Positions 34,811 to 45,043 of a stretch of DNA of 64,000 nucleotides are shown here, piece after piece (position 1 is the first letter of the stretch; every line of letters begins with the position of its first letter). The stretch is from the NCBI GenBank assembly GCA_031254105.1, contig JAIRVB010000041.1, forward strand, positions 1-64,000. Direction: 5' to 3'. The position numbers and the translations under genes were made by a program. The DNA comes from Chitinispirillales bacterium (lineage in GTDB: Bacteria > Fibrobacterota > Chitinivibrionia > Chitinivibrionales > Chitinispirillaceae). The notes beneath the pieces are model-generated. The model saw only the letters and a program-made list of their open reading frames with translations. It did no database searches and was not told the DNA's origin.

Positions 34811-36817
34811 TTAATTAGCCAATGCTGCCCGCGTTCTGTAAATCTCTTTGCCGGAACCATTTCTTACAACCAAAATATAATTACCAGCTGGAGCAACTTT
34901 GGAATTCAATACCAACGGCTGTCCGCTTTTTGCGTTAACGCTTTTTACAAGCTTGCCGCGGGTGTCATAAAGCGTAAGCGTTGCGCCATGCTCTGCGGGA
35001 CCGCGGAGGGTCAATCCGCCGCCCACCCGCACAAGTGACCAAACCTGCGAACGTGCCGGCGATACCGTACTCGTAACGTTAGAATTACAAATTCCAGCTC
35101 CAACTTGACCAATATCCTCCAAAAGGATGTCGTCTATGATCCAATCGCCGGATTCGTTGCCGTAGTAGAACGAAACAACAGCGTCATCTACGGAAGCGCC
35201 GCACATATTGAACTCACTGGAAAACATCTGCATTGAGGACGTGAGCGTGACCGATGCCGTGTCATTGTATCTCGTACTCCTTTGATACACTACAGGAGTT
35301 ATTGTTCGTGTTCCGGACACGGCGCGGGCCTTGAACGACAAACGGTACTTACGGTTCTGAACAAGGGATATGCCTGTTTGCTCAAGACGAACCGAGTTCC
35401 GCGCCGTGCCGAAGTTGGCTGCGGTCACGCGGCACTCCCCGTTCGTAACTGTGCGGGACGCGCCGCTGCCGGCGCCGGAGTTCTGAGTATTCCATCCGGT
35501 CGCGTCCGTGTCAAACGTACCGTTGCGCAAAAGCAATATTTCGCCGAATGCCGCGGTCACAGTTACAGGGCTTGCCGACGTGAGCTGTATCCTTACCGGA
35601 TTGCTGTTGAGGGTGGCGTTGGACAGCACAAACTTGTATGGGCCGTTTATAGTCCAACTCCTAAACGTAGAGCCCGCGTTCGGTGTAGCCGTAAGCGTCA
35701 GCACCTGACCTGGAAAATACCTGCCGCCCTGATTCAGGTTGGGCGTTTCGGTCGTAATTGCCGCAGTGCCGCCGCCGCCCGGCGCGCTCACCGTTACGCC
35801 GGTAATTTGGGTGGCATAGTAACTGAGTTTGTTTTTGATCCAATACCCGCCGCCGCCAGGATTCATATTGTTCAGCGCGCCGGACGTTCCGCCCATGTTA
35901 CTGTACGACCAATTAGCCCAGCCTATGAAATTCCTGTCACTGAATTCAAACCACTTTTCCGTTTCTTCAAAATCATAGGCCCCTGCTCCATCAGAATTGG
36001 TCATACCGAATTCCGTTATGAATATCGGATATCCCCTGCCAAGCGCAGTAGAGGCTCTGCCGCGCAAAACATCCCTGTGGGTTGGATCCGCTCCCGCGTA
36101 GAAGTGCAGCACATAAGCCAAATTTGTGCCGGTCAGTGGGTTCGCTGTTGCAACTTCCACATATTGGCTGAACATTGGCGTACCTACGAGTATAACGTTG
36201 TTTTTATCGTACTTCCTTATGGTGTCGACAGCCGCCTGTAAATACGGTCTTATATCTTGTGGTGTTCCGGTACCCCACTCGTCTCCGGTACATTGATTGC
36301 GGAAACCCCCGTTATTCGGACACGGTTCATTGTATATTTCATACATGACGTGCTTCTCGTCTTTGTATCTATTCGCCATTTCCGCGAAAAAGGCAAGCGC
36401 CTTGCTTCTTTCATCGTTTCTGCCGTTGTGAGCGGAGTGGGAGTGCCAATCGATGATGGCGTATATCCCATTAACCTTGGCCGCGTCTACGACCGTTATG
36501 GTTCTGTTCCTGTCTCCGCCTGCCCCGCAATCCGGTTCGTTACCCGACCCGCTGTGCGCCGAGCGAACTATACCCACTTTCCACTCGCTGGCTAGCGTCC
36601 TAACATGATCGGCGGTATAATAACTGCCGGCCCAGCAATCCCAAAACAAACTCATGCCGCGCAGTACCGCCGGCTCGCCGTGCTGATTAACAATCTTATT
36701 GCCGTTAACGCTCAATTGCCCGTGATACGCAAGCGGTGTGGTTCCACTGGGGGTCCACGCCCACGCAGCAGCTGTCATTATGGCAGTTATCACCAAAGAA
36801 ACGACTGTTTTGTTCAT
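34811..36817 (-). CDS. secreted GH5 endoglucanase with carbohydrate-binding domain and sorting-type tail
   Basis: 668 residues from ATG 36817 (AAGGAGG nine bases upstream; the extension to 36859 is not needed). Signal peptide VVSLVITAIMTAAAWA. GH5 barrel to about residue 330: acid/base Glu164 in MYEIYNEP, nucleophile Glu269 in FITEFGMT, plus IDWHSHSAHNG. Then a beta-repeat domain (~345-425, LTLTATPNAGSTFRSW, InlB B-repeat-like), a CBM4/9-like jelly roll (~430-580, NGTFDTDATGWNTQ...WIIDDILLEDIG), and a ~75-residue tail (TLTLYDTRGKLVKSV..PAGNYILVVRNG) like T9SS sorting domains. Cleaves beta-1,4-glucan outside the cell. Paralogue of the next gene upstream. Confidence 0.93.
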   Translation of the reverse strand: MNKTVVSLVITAIMTAAAWAWTPSGTTPLAYHGQLSVNGNKIVNQHGEPAVLRGMSLFWDCWAGSYYTADHVRTLASEWKVGIVRSAHSGSGNEPDCGAGGDRNRTITVVDAAKVNGIYAIIDWHSHSAHNGRNDERSKALAFFAEMANRYKDEKHVMYEIYNEPCPNNGGFRNQCTGDEWGTGTPQDIRPYLQAAVDTIRKYDKNNVILVGTPMFSQYVEVATANPLTGTNLAYVLHFYAGADPTHRDVLRGRASTALGRGYPIFITEFGMTNSDGAGAYDFEETEKWFEFSDRNFIGWANWSYSNMGGTSGALNNMNPGGGGYWIKNKLSYYATQITGVTVSAPGGGGTAAITTETPNLNQGGRYFPGQVLTLTATPNAGSTFRSWTINGPYKFVLSNATLNSNPVRIQLTSASPVTVTAAFGEILLLRNGTFDTDATGWNTQNSGAGSGASRTVTNGECRVTAANFGTARNSVRLEQTGISLVQNRKYRLSFKARAVSGTRTITPVVYQRSTRYNDTASVTLTSSMQMFSSEFNMCGASVDDAVVSFYYGNESGDWIIDDILLEDIGQVGAGICNSNVTSTVSPARSQVWSLVRVGGGLTLRGPAEHGATLTLYDTRGKLVKSVNAKSGQPLVLNSKVAPAGNYILVVRNGSGKEIYRTRAALAN

Positions 36818-36845
36818 TAGTAAAACCCTCCTTAAATATTTTCTT

Positions 36846-36870
36846 GACAAGGGGGACATGCCCCCTTGTC
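36846..36870. repeat. 10-bp hairpin between the two GH5 genes
   Basis: GACAAGGGGG, loop ACATG, CCCCCTTGTC. It lies just before the ribosome-binding site of the downstream GH5 gene and after the stop of the upstream one. No T-run is present, so it may be an mRNA processing or stability element, or a dispersed palindrome. Confidence 0.5.
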
Positions 36871-36936
36871 CGAATTAATGTCTATTTAGGATATTAGGAT
36901 AATAAGTTACACTCCGGTTCCATACACATTTTTGCG

Positions 36937-39021
36937 CTACCGCTCAAGCATCACTCTTTCGTGACCGAACGCCTTACCATCCAACTTATAGCGCACGGTG
37001 TAAATACCGGCGGGCAGTCTGTCAAGCGATACTTTTGCGCTGCCGCCGCTAAGCGTAACGTTTTTCGTAAATCTAACCCTGCCGGCCATGTCGAACACCT
37101 GCACTTCCGCGCGTTGGCCCATGCTGCCCGCAAGTACAAAAGCTTTGCCGTTAAATACGGCCCTAAACGGAACCGCGCGCGCCGCGGCGTGAGACACGGA
37201 AACCGGATCGCGGTAGTTGCCGGTTGTGCCCTGGCTGGTGGCCGCGCCTATGCTCCTGAGATTGATATCATCTATAACCCAGCTGCCCTGTTCGTTGCCA
37301 TAGTAAAACGACAGGAATGCGTTGGTGGTAACCGTAGCGGCGGTCATGTCGAACTCCATCCAATAGTCACGCATCTCGGTTATAAGCTGTACGGACGCGG
37401 TATCATTGAGCCTGTTGTTCCTTTCCAACACGACCGGAGTAATTTTCCTGTCGGCGCCTATCGACTTGGCGCGGAACTCAAGGCGGTACCGCTGTCCCTG
37501 AGTGAGCGTAAGGGACTGGCCGGAAGAGGTGGGATACTCCAAACGGACGCTGTTCCTCGCGGTACCGTAATTTGTGGCGGAGATTGCAGCTTCCATGTTG
37601 TTGATGATGACGCTTCCCGCGCCGCCGCTTGCTGTTTTTACGCTCCACTGCCCCAAGCTTCCGGTTGTAAACGTGCTGAATCCGGCGGCAATCATGTTTG
37701 TGGGGAAAAACACCGCCGTAGCGCTCATTTCAGAACAAGCCTCGCCGTTAAGCGGGTTGGTGGAGCCGCCGGGGCCGCCGTTTACAATCCACCCTTCGAG
37801 CCTCATACCCGAACCGGGAGTTGCCGACAGGGTGTATGTCTGACAGAACGTTTTTGCCCCGCCGCCGGATACCGCGCCGTCGCCGATTTTATCAAGAGTA
37901 ATAGTGAACGTACGGTCGGGCCTGGTGTTCGCCCTCCGCAGCTTGTCGCGTATAAATGTACCGCCGGAGGAGAGGTCGTTAGCTGTCCAATTGCCATTTG
38001 TCAAACGCGCCTGGTCGGTAGATTGCGCTGTAACGGATTTGAGAAGCGCCGAGCTCTCGTTCCTGGTGGATACCTGCCAAATCGCCCAGCTGCGATTGTT
38101 GCTCTCCATGGCGTCAAACCAACTGCTCATGTAGCTACCGCCAACAGTCGGAGCGCTGCCGCACCAATTGTTACCATCTGCATTGCTGAGACCAAACTCC
38201 GTGACAAAAATAGGCAAGTTCGCGCTCAACCTGTCCGAAAAGTTATGGTTGCAGTAAAAATGCAACGTATACATGATATTTGTACCGCTAATCTGGTTGT
38301 TCATTGCGTCACCCGTGCATTGGCTGTAATATGGAGTTCCCACTACAATGATATTGTTGGGGTCGTTCTGCCTTATTGTGGATATCACTCTATTGGCATA
38401 CGTCCTGATGGTATTCCAGCAAGCGCCGCCGTCGCTGCAGCCCCAACTGGAACACAGCGGCTCGTTATATATTTCATATATGATGTTCGGGTAACCTTTG
38501 TATTTACCTGATATATATCTAAAAAATTCTGAGGCGCCATTTGTGCCGTCTAACTCCGAATGTGCGTTATGGGAGTGCCAGTCTACGATGACGTATATGC
38601 CCTGCTCAATCGCGGCTTCTATGACCCTCTCGACCGCTTGCGCGTTTCCATCGTTAGTCCCGCTGTACATGGTTCCGGGACCTTGATGCGCTCCATGCGG
38701 CGGTTTGTCACTCACGCCCAACGCCGCGCGCACAAGCGTTACCTTCCAGTCGTAAGCCAGCCAGCCGACCACGCGCTTGGTGTAGTACGGCCGTTCGTGG
38801 TCTGTGTTTGAAGACCACCCAAAACTCACGCCTCTAAGCGTTACGGGCTGGTTTGTTTTCTCGGATACGATGTTCCTCCCAACCACCTTCAGCTGGCCGT
38901 AATCAGCGACCGGGGAACCTGTCGGCGCCCATCCCGGCGCAGGCAACTGCGCCAAAAGAACTCCGGCAAACATAAAAACCAACAGCATGGTTAACGGCAG
39001 AAAATGTTTCGTCCTTCTCAT
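36937..39021 (-). CDS. secreted GH5 endoglucanase, second paralogue
   Basis: 694 residues, AAGGAGG before ATG 39021. Signal peptide LPLTMLLVFMFAGVLLAQ. GH5 catalytic part to ~375 with acid/base Glu187 in IYEIYNEP, nucleophile Glu275 in FVTEFGLS and IVDWHSHNAHS. It is followed by a beta-repeat (~385-460), a CBM4/9-like domain (~462-600, ending SWVIDDINLRSIG) and a C-terminal tail (EVQVFDMAGRVRFTKNV, PAGIYTVRYKLDG) typical of T9SS cargo. The CBM-like domains of both paralogues share ARNSVRLE and SFYYGNE, so the tandem arose by duplication. It is probably first in a two-gene operon. Confidence 0.93.
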   Translation of the reverse strand: MRRTKHFLPLTMLLVFMFAGVLLAQLPAPGWAPTGSPVADYGQLKVVGRNIVSEKTNQPVTLRGVSFGWSSNTDHERPYYTKRVVGWLAYDWKVTLVRAALGVSDKPPHGAHQGPGTMYSGTNDGNAQAVERVIEAAIEQGIYVIVDWHSHNAHSELDGTNGASEFFRYISGKYKGYPNIIYEIYNEPLCSSWGCSDGGACWNTIRTYANRVISTIRQNDPNNIIVVGTPYYSQCTGDAMNNQISGTNIMYTLHFYCNHNFSDRLSANLPIFVTEFGLSNADGNNWCGSAPTVGGSYMSSWFDAMESNNRSWAIWQVSTRNESSALLKSVTAQSTDQARLTNGNWTANDLSSGGTFIRDKLRRANTRPDRTFTITLDKIGDGAVSGGGAKTFCQTYTLSATPGSGMRLEGWIVNGGPGGSTNPLNGEACSEMSATAVFFPTNMIAAGFSTFTTGSLGQWSVKTASGGAGSVIINNMEAAISATNYGTARNSVRLEYPTSSGQSLTLTQGQRYRLEFRAKSIGADRKITPVVLERNNRLNDTASVQLITEMRDYWMEFDMTAATVTTNAFLSFYYGNEQGSWVIDDINLRSIGAATSQGTTGNYRDPVSVSHAAARAVPFRAVFNGKAFVLAGSMGQRAEVQVFDMAGRVRFTKNVTLSGGSAKVSLDRLPAGIYTVRYKLDGKAFGHERVMLER

Positions 39022-39321
39022 AGCAGGGGCCTCCTTATCAGAGAACAGGCAACAAACGGCTGCCTGCCCACTAAAATTATGTATTTTTAGACATGTAGTT
39101 AACCGCTTTAATACAATATAAATATTTCAGAGACGAAGATGTCTATATATTATACATTAATACCGCGCCAGGCGCAATAATTTTTTTAGTAACGCGCATC
39201 TTCAGAACCTATGCCGGCGATCTCCAGCCCCGAAGGGGCGTCATACATTACCATAGGGTATAGCCCTATGTATAATGGGGCGTATTACGCCCCTGCCCTT
39301 CGGGGCTGGGGGGATGCCGCT
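39022..39321. other. upstream region of the GH5 pair with one palindromic repeat unit
   Basis: Contains an AT-rich part (39055-39200) that should carry the GH5 promoter on the minus strand, then one unit of the multi-hairpin repeat (see 39219-39308). Confidence 0.5.
39219..39308. repeat. multi-hairpin palindromic repeat, outlying unit
   Basis: CCAGCCCCGAAGGGGCGTCA at its start, then AGGGTATAGCCCT, GGGGCGTATTACGCCCC and CTTCGGGGCTGG. It has the same order of hairpins as the five units at 39930-40420 on the other side of the transposase gene. Confidence 0.85.
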
Positions 39322-39774
39322 CTAATCCCAAACATATCTCTCATCATACTCTACATTATACTTCTTAAGAAACATCCTGTATTCATCCTGAAATATCTTC
39401 TTATTATGATGTCTGCGCTGATTCGCGATGTAAGCTATAACCGTATCTATTTCAGAAGGGTAAACAGAAAACGCTCCATAGCCGGTTTGCCAATAAAAGT
39501 TTTCGTATTCCCTGCCCTTAGTTTTAATCCATTTAGAGGAATTGGATTTTAATTCCTCTATAAGTTTCATCAGGGCTATCTTTTTTGATAACATGCAGAG
39601 TATGTGAATATGGTCTGTATGGCCTCCCACTTTTATTACATGACAGCCGAGTTTGTTGCAGATGCCGCCAAGGTAGCTGTGCAGCTCTGTTTCTACAGGC
39701 GGATGTATGTGCGGGATTCTGTACTTGGTACTGAATACGATATGTATGTAATTTTTTACGAGAGACTGGCCCAT
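39322..39774 (-). mobile_element. IS200-like Y1 transposase (REP-associated/RAYT type)
   Basis: 150 residues, AGAGG before ATG 39774. HUH motif GHTDHIHIL around residue 54-60 and the catalytic Tyr in VIAYIANQRRHHNKK at the C-terminus, as in Y1 transposases (PF01797). WIKTKGREYENFYWQTGYGAFS is typical of the tnpA-REP group. It uses single-strand hairpins as targets. It is intact and flanked on both sides by the multi-hairpin repeat, which is the expected arrangement for a RAYT and its repeats. Confidence 0.9.
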
Positions 39775-39889
39775 ATTGTGCCTCTTTCGTGAGGTGGGGA
39801 TGTTTCTTATATTATGAGAGGTTATGCCGTGATAGTGAGAGACTGCCAGATGGGACGGGACGAAAGCGATGGGCTGCGCCCATCGTTAA

Positions 39890-40420
39890 CGTATGACGCC
39901 CCTTCGGGGCTATGTCGGCGAACCCCTCAGCCCCGAAGGGGCGCCATACGTTACCATAGGGTATAGCCCTATGTATAATGGGGCGTATTACGCCCCTGCT
40001 CTTCGGGGCTATGTCGGCGAACCCCTCAGCCCCGAAGGGGCGTCATACGTTACCATAGGGTATAGCCCTATGTATAATGGGGCGTATTACGCCTCTGCTC
40101 TTCGGGGCTATGTCGGCGAACCCCTCAGCCCCGAAGGGGCGGCAGACGTTACCATATGGTATAGCCCTATGTATAATGGGGCGTATTACGCCTCTGCTCT
40201 TCGGGGCTATGCCGGCGAACCTCCAGCCCCGAAGGGGCGCCATACGTTACCATAGGGTATAGCCCTATGTATAATGGGGCGTATTACGCCCCTGCTCTTC
40301 GGGGCTATGCCGGCGGTCGGCGGCGAACCCCTCAGCCCCGAAGGGGCGTCATAAGTTACCATATGGTATAGCCCTATGTATAATGGGGCGTATTACGCCC
40401 CTGCTCTTCGGGGCTATGGC
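39890..40420. repeat. tandem array of five multi-hairpin repeats
   Basis: Units begin at 39930, 40029, 40128, 40226 and 40335 (spacings 99, 99, 98 and 109), with a partial copy at 39890-39929. Each unit contains GCCCCGAAGGGGC, AGGGTATAGCCCTATG (TGGTATAGCC in units 3 and 5), GGGGCGTATTACGCCCC and GCTCTTCGGGGC. Units differ at few positions. One reading frame translates through as repeats of YSPMYNGAYYA, which is an artefact of the repeat. It lies upstream of the transposase (opposite end from the unit at 39219). Confidence 0.92.
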
Positions 40421-40434
40421 CCCGCGAACCCCAT

Positions 40435-40463
40435 AAAAAAAGGCCCCCGTCGAAACGAGAGCC
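40435..40463 (-). terminator. intrinsic terminator of the secreted carbohydrate-binding protein
   Basis: On the minus strand GGCTCTCGT, loop TTCG, ACGGGGGCC (9 pairs with G-U wobbles) then TTTTTTT. Lies 57 bases past the stop at 40520. Confidence 0.8.
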
Positions 40464-40519
40464 TCTCTTTTAATCTTAATGTACGGGCACTCCTGCAGGC
40501 GCCCATCCGCGTTATAACA

Positions 40520-42604
40520 TTATTTCACAACATTCACAGGAACCTGCTGAACGATTCTCTTGCCGTTCACATCACGCGCGTTGATACGTACAAAGTACAT
40601 ACCTGCGGGGAGTGCGCCTTTGTTACCAAGTCTGGCAGTGATTTTGTTACTGTTAGGCTTGATAGCGGTTGAAGAAACCGTTATACCTCTTACGTTTACC
40701 AGAGAAACTGTTCCGCTGGCGATCCTGGAAGAAGGAGTCCAGTTCACACCGATAGTACCTCTGTTGAAAGAGGCGCGGATACCGGTTGTTTTCGCAGCCG
40801 TGCCTATGTGTCTGACAGGCACGGACGTTCCAACGAGATATACGTTCCTGAGAAACATCTCGCCGCTTTCACCGCCCTGATACTTAAACTGGAACTTCGC
40901 GAGTTGGGTGAGGTCCAACTTCGGACCGGGATTAGCCGCGACAGTCTCCCACTCAAGGTGCTGCCTCAATTTTGCAAACGGCACAGCGACCGCTCTCCAG
41001 CTGCCGCCGGTAGCGCCCGGAACATCAATGTAGAATGTAGCCGACTCAATGCGATTCTTCTTGACATCATGGACATCATGAACCTCAAATGTGATTTGAG
41101 ACGCGTCCGTCCTGTACTCAAAATAAAGACCGTGAAAGCCGCCCGCAGTCGCGTTAAAGAAGTCAGCCGCCGTTAGAGTACTGGGGTCTTTCGGAGTATC
41201 CAGACCGCCATCATCATACAAGTTGGTACCGAGGCCAACAAACGGCTGTACCATCTCTCCGCCGATCGTCAACTGGGGACCCATCCAATATTCAATGCCG
41301 ATATGCGCATTGTCGCCCGAACCGATAACCTTTAAACCGCAGCCACTGTAGTATTGATTGTTGCAGTCAACGCCTTCTCCAGAGAAAGAACTATTACCCT
41401 GAGTAGTGCCGGGATCAACAACAGTCTTTGTGTCATCGTAGCCATACCAATAGTGACCGAGCCAGTTGATAGGATCCGATGTGAGATTGTCGACACGCGG
41501 ATCGGCATCGTGGGGCTTTGTGGTAACAACGCACTCTTCACACATGTCCGCCGCTACGAAACGGAAGCCGTGGATTATAACGTCATCAAGATAGAATGTT
41601 CCGCCTTGGCTCTCAGCATCCTTAGTACTCGGGTTCGGGGCCAAAAGATCGGTAACAGGCTCGTATGTGTAATCATTCGGACCGGTCTGTATCTGCCACG
41701 CCAATTTAACGATGTTTTTCTTAATAAAGTTCTTGTTGGTGCCAATAAGGTCGTAGCTGCTTGCGTTTTGATACCAGAGCGCGCCCTGTCCCAAAGCCCA
41801 CGCGGGCTGCGCAAGACCGGCGTTCGTTGTCGCACCGGTAATGGGCGCAAGCTCACCGTGTATGTAATCGGCTTTGGCTTGATGTGACGTTGGGTCGACT
41901 TTTAAATGTATAGTGTATGTCTGCTCCGTGGTGCCGACCTGGATGACTCTGCCGAAGTGGGCATTCATCTCTATATGCGACATTTCAACGGCGAATCTCA
42001 CCGCCATCGGGACGCTCGCTTTAGCCTTGAATGTGATATGCGTAGCGTTTTCGATGCCTTTCGGACCTTCCTTGCTGCCATCGGGCGCAAGGTTAGTGCC
42101 TATGCCGACAAACTGCTGCACCTCATAACACCCTCTGGCATAGCCGCCCGGCCCCGTGGCGCTTTCAGGATACCACGTAAGATCCAATGGCCCATTCGTA
42201 CAATTGCTGTGGTTCGGATTACGCGCTTTTTCTATTGATGTGTTATCATAACCGGTTTGAAACGTTCTCCCCCACGTAAATTCCAATTTCGCGGAGTTTC
42301 CGTTAATACCATCTGAAGTAATTGACCTATCCGGCGTGAAGAGGAGTTCTCTGCCACTGCTGCCAACGCGCTCGCCTGCGCTGAGGACCTTAGAATTGCC
42401 GGTTTTACCGGCATCGGCGTGAGGTGCAGTAAGAGACGACTTGACCTCGCTGTCATCGTAGAAGTACCAGTAGTCCTTGAACAGGTTCTGGTTTGAGTTG
42501 TTCTCGAAGTCTGCCAATAAAGAAGACTCCTGCGCAAAAGCTCCGCCCGCCATCATAAGAGCCGCGGCAAGCCCTGCAGTTAACCGCTTAGTAAATTTTC
42601 CCAT
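40520..42604 (-). CDS. secreted protein with two galactose-binding-like domains (CBM-type)
   Basis: 694 residues, AAGGAAGG before ATG 42604. Signal peptide LTAGLAAALMMAGGAFAQ. Two related modules, each beginning LLADFENN-LFKDYWYFYDD or DPINWLGHYWYGYDDTK, with later QPFVGLGTNL and QFVGIGTNLAPDG, resemble CBM11/CIA30-type beta-sandwiches (carbohydrate binding). There is no catalytic motif. The tail (TVSLVNVRGITVSS, LPAGMYFVRINARD) matches the sorting-type tails of the GH5 enzymes. Probably a cell-surface glycan-binding protein of the cellulase set (inference). Confidence 0.75.
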   Translation of the reverse strand: MGKFTKRLTAGLAAALMMAGGAFAQESSLLADFENNSNQNLFKDYWYFYDDSEVKSSLTAPHADAGKTGNSKVLSAGERVGSSGRELLFTPDRSITSDGINGNSAKLEFTWGRTFQTGYDNTSIEKARNPNHSNCTNGPLDLTWYPESATGPGGYARGCYEVQQFVGIGTNLAPDGSKEGPKGIENATHITFKAKASVPMAVRFAVEMSHIEMNAHFGRVIQVGTTEQTYTIHLKVDPTSHQAKADYIHGELAPITGATTNAGLAQPAWALGQGALWYQNASSYDLIGTNKNFIKKNIVKLAWQIQTGPNDYTYEPVTDLLAPNPSTKDAESQGGTFYLDDVIIHGFRFVAADMCEECVVTTKPHDADPRVDNLTSDPINWLGHYWYGYDDTKTVVDPGTTQGNSSFSGEGVDCNNQYYSGCGLKVIGSGDNAHIGIEYWMGPQLTIGGEMVQPFVGLGTNLYDDGGLDTPKDPSTLTAADFFNATAGGFHGLYFEYRTDASQITFEVHDVHDVKKNRIESATFYIDVPGATGGSWRAVAVPFAKLRQHLEWETVAANPGPKLDLTQLAKFQFKYQGGESGEMFLRNVYLVGTSVPVRHIGTAAKTTGIRASFNRGTIGVNWTPSSRIASGTVSLVNVRGITVSSTAIKPNSNKITARLGNKGALPAGMYFVRINARDVNGKRIVQQVPVNVVK

Positions 42605-42878
42605 AAAACCCTTCCTTTTTGGTTATAGTTTAGTGGAAAGAAAGTAAATTACAATGTATAATATACAAATAAAAACATTATAATAATAGAGAGATCATAT
42701 CAGCGTCATATAACGTACATCCTTTTCAATATAATTAACAGAATAACAAGATATGGTAAAAAAACACAAAAAGTCCGTTTGCGATCTGCCTCAGTTTATA
42801 TTATAATAAAAAACTGTGGAAAGGGCAAGTGTTATTTTGACGCGGCTTATGAACAGTGTACTCAAGAGTGTATCACTA

Positions 42879-42998
42879 AATCTTTCCGCCGCGCGGTTTT
42901 GGCGCGGTATACATTGGCCCAAGCGGATACGGTATCGTTTGGAACGACTATATAGATCTTGCCTGCAACGAGCTGCGGGAAAACGGTTATTCCGAATA
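42879..42998 (+). pseudogene. fragment of a DUF2442-like small protein
   Basis: A frame without start codon reads IFPPRGFGAVYIGPSGYGI then VWNDYIDLACNELRENGYSE and a stop. From memory, GYGIVWND-IDLACDELW-NG is a frequent C-terminus of small DUF2442-like, antitoxin-type proteins. An in-frame stop precedes it. Treat as a decayed remnant; family assignment is tentative. Confidence 0.35.
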
Positions 42999-43001
42999 AT
43001 A

Positions 43002-43028
43002 CGCGGGAAAGATGAGTCCCGCGCTTTT
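43002..43028 (+). terminator. intrinsic terminator after the gene fragment
   Basis: GCGGGA (43002-43007) and TCCCGC (43016-43021), then GCTTTTT. It suggests the fragment was once an expressed gene. Confidence 0.55.
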
Positions 43029-43145
43029 TATTTCCCGCGTTCAGCCATTTATATTTCTACATTGGTTCTCTTCCCGCTATTATATTAATAGAAGGATTTC
43101 TATAATTTAGATAAAAACGTTTTCTGAAAACAGGGTAACCCCAGG

Positions 43146-43904
43146 ATGATTACAGTTATTATTTCGGCCAAAAATCCCATTCCCGAATCCACCCTTGAGA
43201 GAAACATTAAAAAGACAATCGGATCTCCCCTTGAGCTGTTTATGATAAATAACGCGGGAGGAGAAAACAGTTTAGCGGCTGTTTATAATTTCGGAGCCAG
43301 CCGTTCACGCGGCGATATATTAGTGTTCATGCACGATGACGCGTTTTTTATGAATGAGAACTGGGGGCCGGTTCTTGAGTCGCTCTTTGCTCAGGATCCG
43401 TCTCTTGGAATAATAGGGGTTGCGGGGTCTCAGTATCTTTTTAATGATCACTGTTCATGGACTGCGCCGGGCCGTCCCTTTATAAAGGGGCGCATGATTC
43501 ACGATTTGCAGAACGGAGATTTTTTCGCTACGATGTACTCCCCGCATAAAGAGACCGCGCAGGTAGTCGTATGCAGCGGGGTATTTTTCGCGGTAAGAAG
43601 AGAGCTGCTTACACAGTTTGGTTTCGATGAAAAAACATTCGATTCCTTTTACTTTCATGATCTTGACTTCTGCATGCATGCGAGAAGACGATGGAAGATA
43701 ATCGTTACCGGCGATATTGTTGTAAAACACAGATCAACCGGCACTTACGGTAAAGAATGGCAGCGTTACGGTCAGCTGTTTCTCCAAAAATGGGCACGCG
43801 AACTGCCCGCGGCCTGCGCCGGCGGCGTACCGGACCTGTCCAACTGCGTTAACGCCGCGAGTGTACATCTTAAGGGAAAAATTGAACAGCGAACCATCGC
43901 GTAG
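43146..43904 (+). CDS. family 2-type glycosyltransferase
   Basis: 252 residues. A GT-A fold with ITVIISAKNP at the start, GASRSRGDILVFMHDDAFFM (DxD-like metal site HDD), the acceptor-side GVFFAVRREL and FHDLDFCMHARR. This is the short soluble GT2-like type that starts from a small sugar nucleotide; donor and acceptor are unknown, with cell-surface glycan being likely. Weak AGG before ATG 43146. Confidence 0.85.
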   Translation: MITVIISAKNPIPESTLERNIKKTIGSPLELFMINNAGGENSLAAVYNFGASRSRGDILVFMHDDAFFMNENWGPVLESLFAQDPSLGIIGVAGSQYLFNDHCSWTAPGRPFIKGRMIHDLQNGDFFATMYSPHKETAQVVVCSGVFFAVRRELLTQFGFDEKTFDSFYFHDLDFCMHARRRWKIIVTGDIVVKHRSTGTYGKEWQRYGQLFLQKWARELPAACAGGVPDLSNCVNAASVHLKGKIEQRTIA

Positions 43905-44997
43905 GGACGCCCGTGCGCTGTCCATACCTCAAACATCATTACACAGTACGGATTTCTCGCGGATCCTGCGTAGCCGCAATCCTCTTGGCGGGGGGGGCGC
44001 TGAGCCGTCCGTATCTCATACGCCTCTGATCCTTGCTCCCATGGCAGGTATTACGGATACTGTTTTCCGGCGGCTTTGCAAACAGCATGGTGCGGATATT
44101 ACAGTATCCGAAATGGTAAGCGCTGACGGACTGCATTATAAATCAGCCGACACTGCGGAATTAATGAGTTTTGACGATTCGGAACGCCCCTTTGGAGTAC
44201 AGCTTTTCGGCTCAGACCCGCGGAGGCTCGCTCAAGCCGCTCAAATTGCTTTTGACACTGTAAAGCCGGATTTTATTGACCTTAACTCAGGCTGCCCAGT
44301 GGCCAAAGTTGTAAAACGCAACGGCGGATCAGCGCTGCTTAGAGAGCCAAAGTTATTCGGTAATATTATCAAAGCGATGTCAGACGCAGTTCCAATCCCG
44401 GTAACTGTAAAAATCCGTTCCGGCTGGAACAAGTACGAATGGGTTGACGAAGAGTTAGCGCGTATCGCGCAGGACAACGGCGCCGCCGCGCTAACTCTCC
44501 ACCCGCGCTCTCAAACCATGATGTTTACAGGCCACTCATTCTGGGAACGAATCGCGGTTGTAAAAAAAGCGGTCTCTATCCCTTTAATCGGAAATGGAGA
44601 TATAACAGATGGCCCCAAGGCTTTAAAAATGCTTTTTGAAACCGGGTGTGACGCAATTATGATCGGGAGAGGGACTTATGGGAATCCCTGGATTTTCGCG
44701 GAGATTAAGGCCGCGCTAGGCGGTAAAACCTTCGCTCCGCCATCCGCGCGGGAACGCGTCAATGTGATTATTGAACATATCCGCGCTTTTCGTAATATTC
44801 ACGGAGAGCGGCGTGCCTGCGGCGAGATGAAAAAACATGCCTCGTGGTATCTGAAGGGTACCGCCGGAGCAAGCGCGGCAAGAAGCAGGATATTTTCGGC
44901 CAACTCTACTATTGAACTTGAGGATGTTATCGGAGACTTTTTTGAAATCAATGCAGAAATAATAATGCAGAATGCAGAAATAAAAAACCACTTATAA
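43861..44997 (+). CDS. dusB: tRNA-dihydrouridine synthase
   Basis: Up to 378 residues; the true start is unclear. The core begins at LILAPMAGITDTVFRRLC (44026 onwards) and includes SEMVSADGLHY, DLNSGCPVAKVVKRNGGSAL with catalytic Cys, VKIRSGW, TLHPRSQTM and IGNGDI/MIGRGTYGNPW for FMN binding. The known DusB N-terminus is only ~10 residues before LAPMAG, but GTG 43861 gives ~57 unusual residues (SRRDARALSIPQTSLHS). An 8-G run at 43990-43997 lies in that stretch; one more G would open a TTG start at 43985. The last ~13 residues (AEIIMQNAEIKNHL) are translated from inverted-repeat copy 6. Confidence 0.88.
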   Translation: MYILREKLNSEPSRRDARALSIPQTSLHSTDFSRILRSRNPLGGGGAEPSVSHTPLILAPMAGITDTVFRRLCKQHGADITVSEMVSADGLHYKSADTAELMSFDDSERPFGVQLFGSDPRRLAQAAQIAFDTVKPDFIDLNSGCPVAKVVKRNGGSALLREPKLFGNIIKAMSDAVPIPVTVKIRSGWNKYEWVDEELARIAQDNGAAALTLHPRSQTMMFTGHSFWERIAVVKKAVSIPLIGNGDITDGPKALKMLFETGCDAIMIGRGTYGNPWIFAEIKAALGGKTFAPPSARERVNVIIEHIRAFRNIHGERRACGEMKKHASWYLKGTAGASAARSRIFSANSTIELEDVIGDFFEINAEIIMQNAEIKNHL

Positions 44998-45043
44998 TAC
45001 AAAGAGAAACTGTTCCGTACCTTTTTGTTTTATTTCTGCATTC
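44950..45043. repeat. dispersed inverted-repeat element, copy 6
   Basis: Left arm AATGCAGAAATAATAATGCA at 44950 (inside dusB, coding its C-terminus); right arm TTTATTTCTGCATTCTA at about 45028-45044, touching the stop codon of the convergent cyclotransferase gene. Confidence 0.8.

Follow-up and report, generated by a model that had tools for sequence, protein, structure and literature searches.

The transposase gene and its palindromic surroundings

The window, by which we mean the whole 64,000-nt stretch of DNA analyzed, contains an intact gene for a Y1/HUH transposase (tnp; motifs HTDHIHI and YIANQRRHH) with genes for two GH5 cellulases and a CBM11-like protein as neighbors (Table 1). The encoded protein scores 94.3 bits against the Pfam Y1_Tnp model (cut-off 23), and its closest solved structures are those of IS608 TnpA and an ISDra2-type TnpA. 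A repeat search of the window returned six unit copies (starts 39199, 39902, 40001, 40100, 40198 and 40307; spacing 703, 99, 99, 98 and 109), one to the left of tnp and five to its right. Both the intact Y1/IS200-like gene and the arrangement of one unit opposite five tandem units of ~99 bp had been described in a first-pass annotation of this DNA, and both descriptions hold. The single-strand folding that it proposed as a check is likewise borne out, as the folds of the units were more stable than those of 200 dinucleotide shuffles (z = −3.5 to −6.7).

The same annotation had regarded the unit as a long four-hairpin element that departs from classical short REPs. We dropped this notion of a new element, since hairpins P1 (AGCCCCGAAGGGGCG) and P2 (CATAGGGTATAGCCCTATG) form one 45-nt palindrome, and the remainder of each unit is a second copy of that palindrome, inverted, partly degenerate and with P2 in common. 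In array unit 4, a covariance model matched the minus strand at 40225-40269 and the plus strand at 40251-40306; the two matches overlap on P2, so each "four-hairpin unit" is an inverted palindrome pair similar to a REPIN. The palindrome itself was already catalogued. A scan of the whole window at Rfam gathering thresholds returned one family only, RF01687 (Acido-Lenti-1), at the single palindrome 5' of tnp, with the other window copies listed scoring 32.3–34.1 bits, below the threshold.

This single palindrome, absent from the first-pass annotation, lies upstream of the tnp start codon, and its first hairpin differs from that of the array units (CGATGGGCTGCGCCCATCG). Together with the minus-strand palindrome at 39226-39270 on the other side, it brackets tnp as an outward-facing inverted pair. 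A model built from 30 Rfam-detected copies (R1) places the gene-bracketing palindromes and the array unit in one family.

Table 1. Features at the transposase locus, with positions in the window.
Feature	Position	Strand	Basis or remark
GH5 cellulase	34811-36859		neighbor of the tnp locus
GH5 cellulase	36937-39021		neighbor of the tnp locus
REPIN-like unit, 3' side of tnp	39226-39307		palindrome 39226-39270 (−) and inverted half-copy 39252-39307 (+), central hairpin common to both
TnpA-Y1 transposase (tnp)	39322-39774	−	150 aa; DHIH, WQ (WQTGY) and YIANQRRHH, the subclass 1.2 signature (PMC6006769, Table 1)
Single Acido-Lenti-1 palindrome, 5' of tnp, outer hairpin away from tnp	39867-39911	+	RF01687 38.5 bits (gathering threshold 37); R1 50.8 bits
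Array unit 1, inverted palindrome pair	39929-40010		repeat search and R1 model
Array unit 2	40028-40109		repeat search, R1 model and folding
Array unit 3	40127-40208		repeat search and R1 model
Array unit 4	40225-40306		repeat search and R1 model
Array unit 5	40334-40415		repeat search, R1 model and folding
CBM11-like protein	40520-42604		neighbor of the tnp locus

A genome-wide search, also suggested at the outset, gave a divided answer: the 99-bp array unit has no further copy in the rest of the 3.7-Mb genome, whereas about ten diverged copies of its palindrome were found there. With copies in this genome and in relatives, the absence of copies elsewhere that had been named as the refuting outcome did not occur. 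The only same-genus genome holds no collinear match to the array locus. Two side observations concern the same region. A promoter-like TTACCA-17-TATAAT is present on the plus strand of each palindromic unit (10/12 matches; 39248-40384), which we do not count as evidence, and a ~30-bp sequence just 5' of the 40520-42604 gene (~42640-42690) is a dispersed repeat with many genome matches at ~90%.

Class of the enzyme and origin of the module

We next consider which type of Y1 enzyme tnp encodes. The protein passed the NCBIfam IS200 model (NF033573; 71.6 versus a cut-off of 55) and failed REP_Tyr_transpos (NF047646; 21.7 bits versus 80), and it has YIANQ where RAYT/TnpA-REP enzymes (class 2) carry Y---NP. 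It agrees with the sequence criteria for TnpA-Y1 subclass 1.2, namely Y---Q--HH (YIANQRRHH), WQ (WQTGY), DH[IV]H (HTDHIHI) and a length of ~148 aa (150 aa); the published subclass, recorded in Bacteroidetes, is described with DH[IV]H, WQ, a YIKNQKEHH-type motif, 148–150 aa and low copy number (PMC6006769). Low genomic copy number also applies here, since the genome of the window has a single intact tnp, a truncated relative and a distant Y1 protein. The several near-identical copies and tnpB partner typical of IS200/IS605 were not found: tnp is a single full-length copy, and no tnpB-like gene was noticed among the open reading frames at 35000-45000. Judged by its motifs, tnp is a class-1 (IS200-like) transposase of subclass 1.2 and falls outside the RAYTs as these are defined (class 2, Y---NP). 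For subclass 1.2, Quentin et al. 2018 (PMC6006769) reported no REP and generally no IS200-type terminal structures, where the absence of REP is a reported property rather than a sequence criterion for membership.

The tnp protein shares 83% amino acid identity with a Runella homologue and 75–83% with several other Bacteroidota, compared with at most 54% for homologues of its own order, suggesting horizontal acquisition. Between the palindromes of the window and those at close transposases in other phyla, identity averages 0.78; against five loci of their own order, the best identity was 0.56–0.71. Bacteroidota or a relative are the probable source of the tnp-palindrome module.

Palindromes beside homologous transposase genes

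To place the locus in a wider frame, model R1 was run on 80 homologous loci with flanks of up to 10 kb, drawn from about nine phyla (Bacteroidota, Chlorobiota, Ignavibacteria, Planctomycetota, Verrucomicrobiota, Acidobacteriota, Armatimonadota, Calditrichota, Fibrobacterota and a deltaproteobacterium); these are the closest homologues and no random sample of subclass 1.2. Half of the top 150 matches (75) lie within 100 bp of tnp. Their density falls from 4.69/kb within 100 bp to 2.08 at 100–200 bp and 0.89 at 200–300 bp, and is 0.003–0.010/kb beyond 2 kb. A top-150 match occurs within 500 bp of tnp in 57 of the 80 loci, and at E<1 a flanking match is present in 79 of 80, the exception being L121. 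The nearest palindrome pointed outward in 36 of 47 cases upstream (minus strand; 36:11) and in 34 of 47 downstream (plus strand; 34:13). A model-free test agreed: when the two 300-bp flanks were aligned with each other as inverted repeats, the best score reached 40 or more at 45/78 loci versus 0/468 control windows.

The Rfam RF01687 model itself finds the motif beside tnp in five relatives. Across 41 genomes of the order, RF01687 matches were present in all nine with the tnp clade versus 10 of 32 without it (Fisher p = 2.6e-4), and 14 control genomes gave no match, though five of them have other PF01797 proteins. A held-out tnp on a Persicobacter plasmid, which entered no model, is flanked by an outward pair at 98 and 46 bp, with two tnp-less pairs nearby. 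On either side of the transposase genes of this clade, the Acido-Lenti-1 palindrome thus lies within ~100 bp, its GAA-loop hairpin pointing outward. The published "no REP" for subclass 1.2 is contradicted by palindromes at nearly all homologues examined.

These data bear on the simplest alternative, a typical IS200/IS605 insertion sequence with an unrelated tandem repeat as its neighbor. Its appeal lies in the NCBIfam IS200 score and the matched structures, and the enzyme fold, catalytic motifs and hairpins near the ends do resemble IS608 and ISDra2. In IS200/IS605 elements, recognition of the ends is confined to one strand and the two ends do not repeat each other in inverted form; here they do, facing outward, the gene copy number is low and no TnpB was seen. 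Moreover, the bracketing palindromes and the array unit are of the same family, palindromes flank tnp in 79 of 80 homologues, and four subclass-1.1 IS200 loci (two with tnpB) had none. We consider this explanation highly improbable and refuted by the palindrome-tnp association.

Tandem arrays (period of at least 60) lie within 1.5 kb of tnp in 19/80 loci, amounting to 34 arrays in 228 kb near tnp versus 7 in 1042 kb farther out. The array in the window is one case of a recurrent feature.

Folded strand, dispersal and the nature of Acido-Lenti-1

The palindromes have also diverged together with their transposases. Palindrome identity correlated with tnp identity (rho 0.43, with none of 2000 permutations as high), as it did among cross-phylum pairs alone (rho 0.42, 0/2000). 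Double changes, indicative of covariation, were seen in 9 of 12 base pairs. On the strand annotated by Rfam, the mispairs comprised 54 A.C versus 6 G.U (25 loci versus 5; G.U in 6 of 1791 cells), and a model-free count at the closing pair of hairpin 2 gave C.A in 27 loci versus T.G in 7 (p = 0.0008). An excess of A.C over G.U on the Rfam strand implies that the conserved fold is formed by the complementary strand, where these mispairs are G.T wobbles. Read in this direction, hairpin 2 has a GAA loop in 122/150 copies, and GAA triloops form unusually stable DNA hairpins. Hairpin 1 carries a conserved 5' foot, YAR (N[TC]A[GA]), with A in 144/150. Of the guide bases that had been anticipated near the hairpins, the literal GTAG of the REP tag GT[AG]G is found in 4/150 only; the YAR foot occupies the position of that classical tag.

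RF01687 is described as an sRNA of Acidobacteria and Lentisphaerae with no known role. It was graded a probable RNA, not cis-regulatory, by Weinberg et al. 2010 (PMC2864571), and a 2026 paper that calls its function little known suggested a role in regulating Tannerella proteases (PMC13298647). A genuine structured RNA beside or regulating the transposase, for example in untranslated regions or as insulation against read-through transcription, would account for the covarying helices as well as for these two assessments. Yet A.C mispairs nine times commoner than G.U argue for a fold on the wrong strand for that RNA, and the outward orientation of the palindromes to either side of tnp means that no one transcript holds both in the same sense. 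Inverted pairs without tnp and tandem arrays would be unexpected for an sRNA, and the window copies have no terminator-like T tract. We therefore judge the RNA explanation to be quite improbable. The Acido-Lenti-1 "RNA", which shares its two-hairpin motif with the palindromes described here, is probably a mobile repeat of DNA that is linked to a transposase, occurs in many bacterial phyla and has its conserved fold on the other strand. In a literature search outside subscription journals and ISfinder, we found neither a link between Acido-Lenti-1/RF01687 and a transposase nor later work on TnpA-Y1 classes or on repeats for subclass 1.2.

As in REP/REPIN systems, the palindromes both flank the transposase gene and lie scattered elsewhere in its absence, frequently in inverted pairs. 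R1 matches number 1–121 per genome in 16 genomes and reach 135 in one planctomycete genus, where they are present in 17 of 19 genomes. The tnp-less inverted pairs span ~80–220 bp; in a verrucomicrobium and two planctomycetes they measure ~100–200 bp, and their ends, inner hairpin included, match those of the tnp module. Among 32 ends from one planctomycete (G051), conservation drops ~6 nt beyond the outer hairpin (consensus GGTTTT), which indicates that the pair itself is the repeated unit in that genome. A ~1.1-kb module of Bacteroides xylanisolvens is absent from the orthologous intergenic site in six congeners, and a planctomycete palindrome pair is absent from the orthologous site in a congener, while a further congener carries a different palindrome subfamily there; these comparisons establish presence and absence, their exact junctions being blurred by intergenic divergence. 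As a separate observation, the intergenic site of a G051 pair is occupied in the planctomycete G119 (L306) by multiple palindromes from another Acido-Lenti-1 subfamily (CCAGGGGTTGAAACCCCTGGCTA).

Some copies sit inside larger elements, which raises the alternative that ordinary DDE MITEs contain the palindromes as subterminal segments and carry the Y1 transposase as another passenger. Four loci of the window's own genome (L166, L167, L169 and L170) belong to a ~230-bp element family with TIR TGCGTAACATCAG, which holds outward Acido-Lenti-1 palindromes and has TTATTAA/TTATAA on both sides as a possible target duplication. In Bacteroides G077 (L256, 1284-1920), the palindrome pair lies within a 637-bp insertion with TIR CAGGGCAAC/GTTGCCCTG and a 9-bp duplication, TATTTTATC; G100 has no insertion at this site, and the one found there in G041 has the same ends. 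We thus ruled out this copy as a clean insertion of the palindrome pair. Against the MITE explanation, the outer TIRs vary between genomes and were unseen around the tnp copies inspected, including the TIRs of the ~230-bp elements at the tnp locus of the window. Furthermore, the palindrome-tnp pairing is constant across phyla, the palindromes co-diverge with tnp, and conservation in G051 ends at the palindrome itself. We find this explanation unlikely. Y1 enzymes are not known to make target duplications, and the 9-bp duplication around the G077 copy suggests that part of the dispersal may be passive, with palindromes riding in elements of other transposases.

In our assessment, the locus most likely represents a REPtron-like system whose class-1 Y1 transposase uses the single-stranded palindrome as its substrate, mobilizing its own module together with gene-less pairs. 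A dimeric HUH/Tyr enzyme would recognize the palindrome in single-stranded form, probably on the lagging-strand template, the recognized strand reading 5'-AGCCCYGAARGGGCG-linker-YAR-hairpin 1. By analogy with IS608 TnpA and E. coli TnpA-REP, it would cut next to the palindrome with the YAR foot as guide, and cutting would move the whole module or copy transposase-less pairs. The 99-bp array of the window would then be a local tandem amplification of one palindrome pair.

The REPtrons of E. coli and Pseudomonas (RAYT/TnpA-REP with REP/BIME/REPIN) share with this system a single-copy gene for an HUH-Tyr enzyme between palindromes, an arrangement in inverted pairs (REPINs), local clustering, numerous dispersed copies that lack the gene and a conserved short tag at the 5' hairpin foot. 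They differ in the class of the enzyme (class 2, Y---NP, versus class 1, Y---Q--HH) and in the tag (GT[AG]G versus YAR). The palindrome here has two hairpins with a GAA-loop outer hairpin and, unlike that of REPtrons, is found in Bacteroidota, Planctomycetota, Verrucomicrobiota, Fibrobacterota, Acidobacteriota and others. TIRYT/TIRtrons of Acidobacteria and others also have a Y1 gene between inverted repeats and dispersed copies, but their enzymes are RAYT-like (class 2, mostly subclass 2.1) and their TIRs unrelated (GGGGWSAS; PMC3733652). By its defining catalytic motif, then, the enzyme is no RAYT, yet the system works like a REP/REPIN system. The first-pass reading of a RAYT with REP-like repeats accordingly finds strong support for the repeats, given the dispersed copies, gene-flanking inverted pairs and tag-like YAR foot, and fails for the enzyme, which is of subclass 1.2 and far below the REP_Tyr_transpos cut-off.

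This analysis joins two orphans, a transposase subclass reported without cognate repeats and an Rfam "sRNA" with an unexplained role, the latter still read in current papers as a regulatory RNA near virulence proteases. If it is correct, matches to RF01687 call for annotation as mobile palindromes of DNA and not as RNA genes, and the REP/REPIN phenomenon, mainly studied in Proteobacteria, extends through another enzyme class to Bacteroidota, Planctomycetota, Verrucomicrobiota and others. More tentatively, we raise the possibility that class-1 Y1 transposases gave rise, apart from class-2 RAYTs, to a second cross-phylum REP/REPIN system. Its palindrome would then have been misread, on the wrong strand, as a structured RNA, and the enzyme itself would make the tandem arrays beside its own gene. 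The locus offers a setting for testing how HUH enzymes create tandem hairpin arrays.

Related transposases carry other repeats. In a sister clade marked by TQIYIQ, variant palindromes were found, with weaker support in the inverted-repeat test. The truncated TQIYIQ-type transposase of the window's own genome (L175; contig C19, 22000-23800) has its own variant palindromes (CCCCTACGGGG hairpins, GGGGCTTAAGCCCC), and several Bacteroidota TQIYIQ-type transposases (L309-L331) are flanked by other inverted palindromes (GTCCCGTTAGGGAC..GGTAGA; AATCCCGAAGGGATG..GATTATA), suggesting that each transposase clade may have its own cognate repeat.
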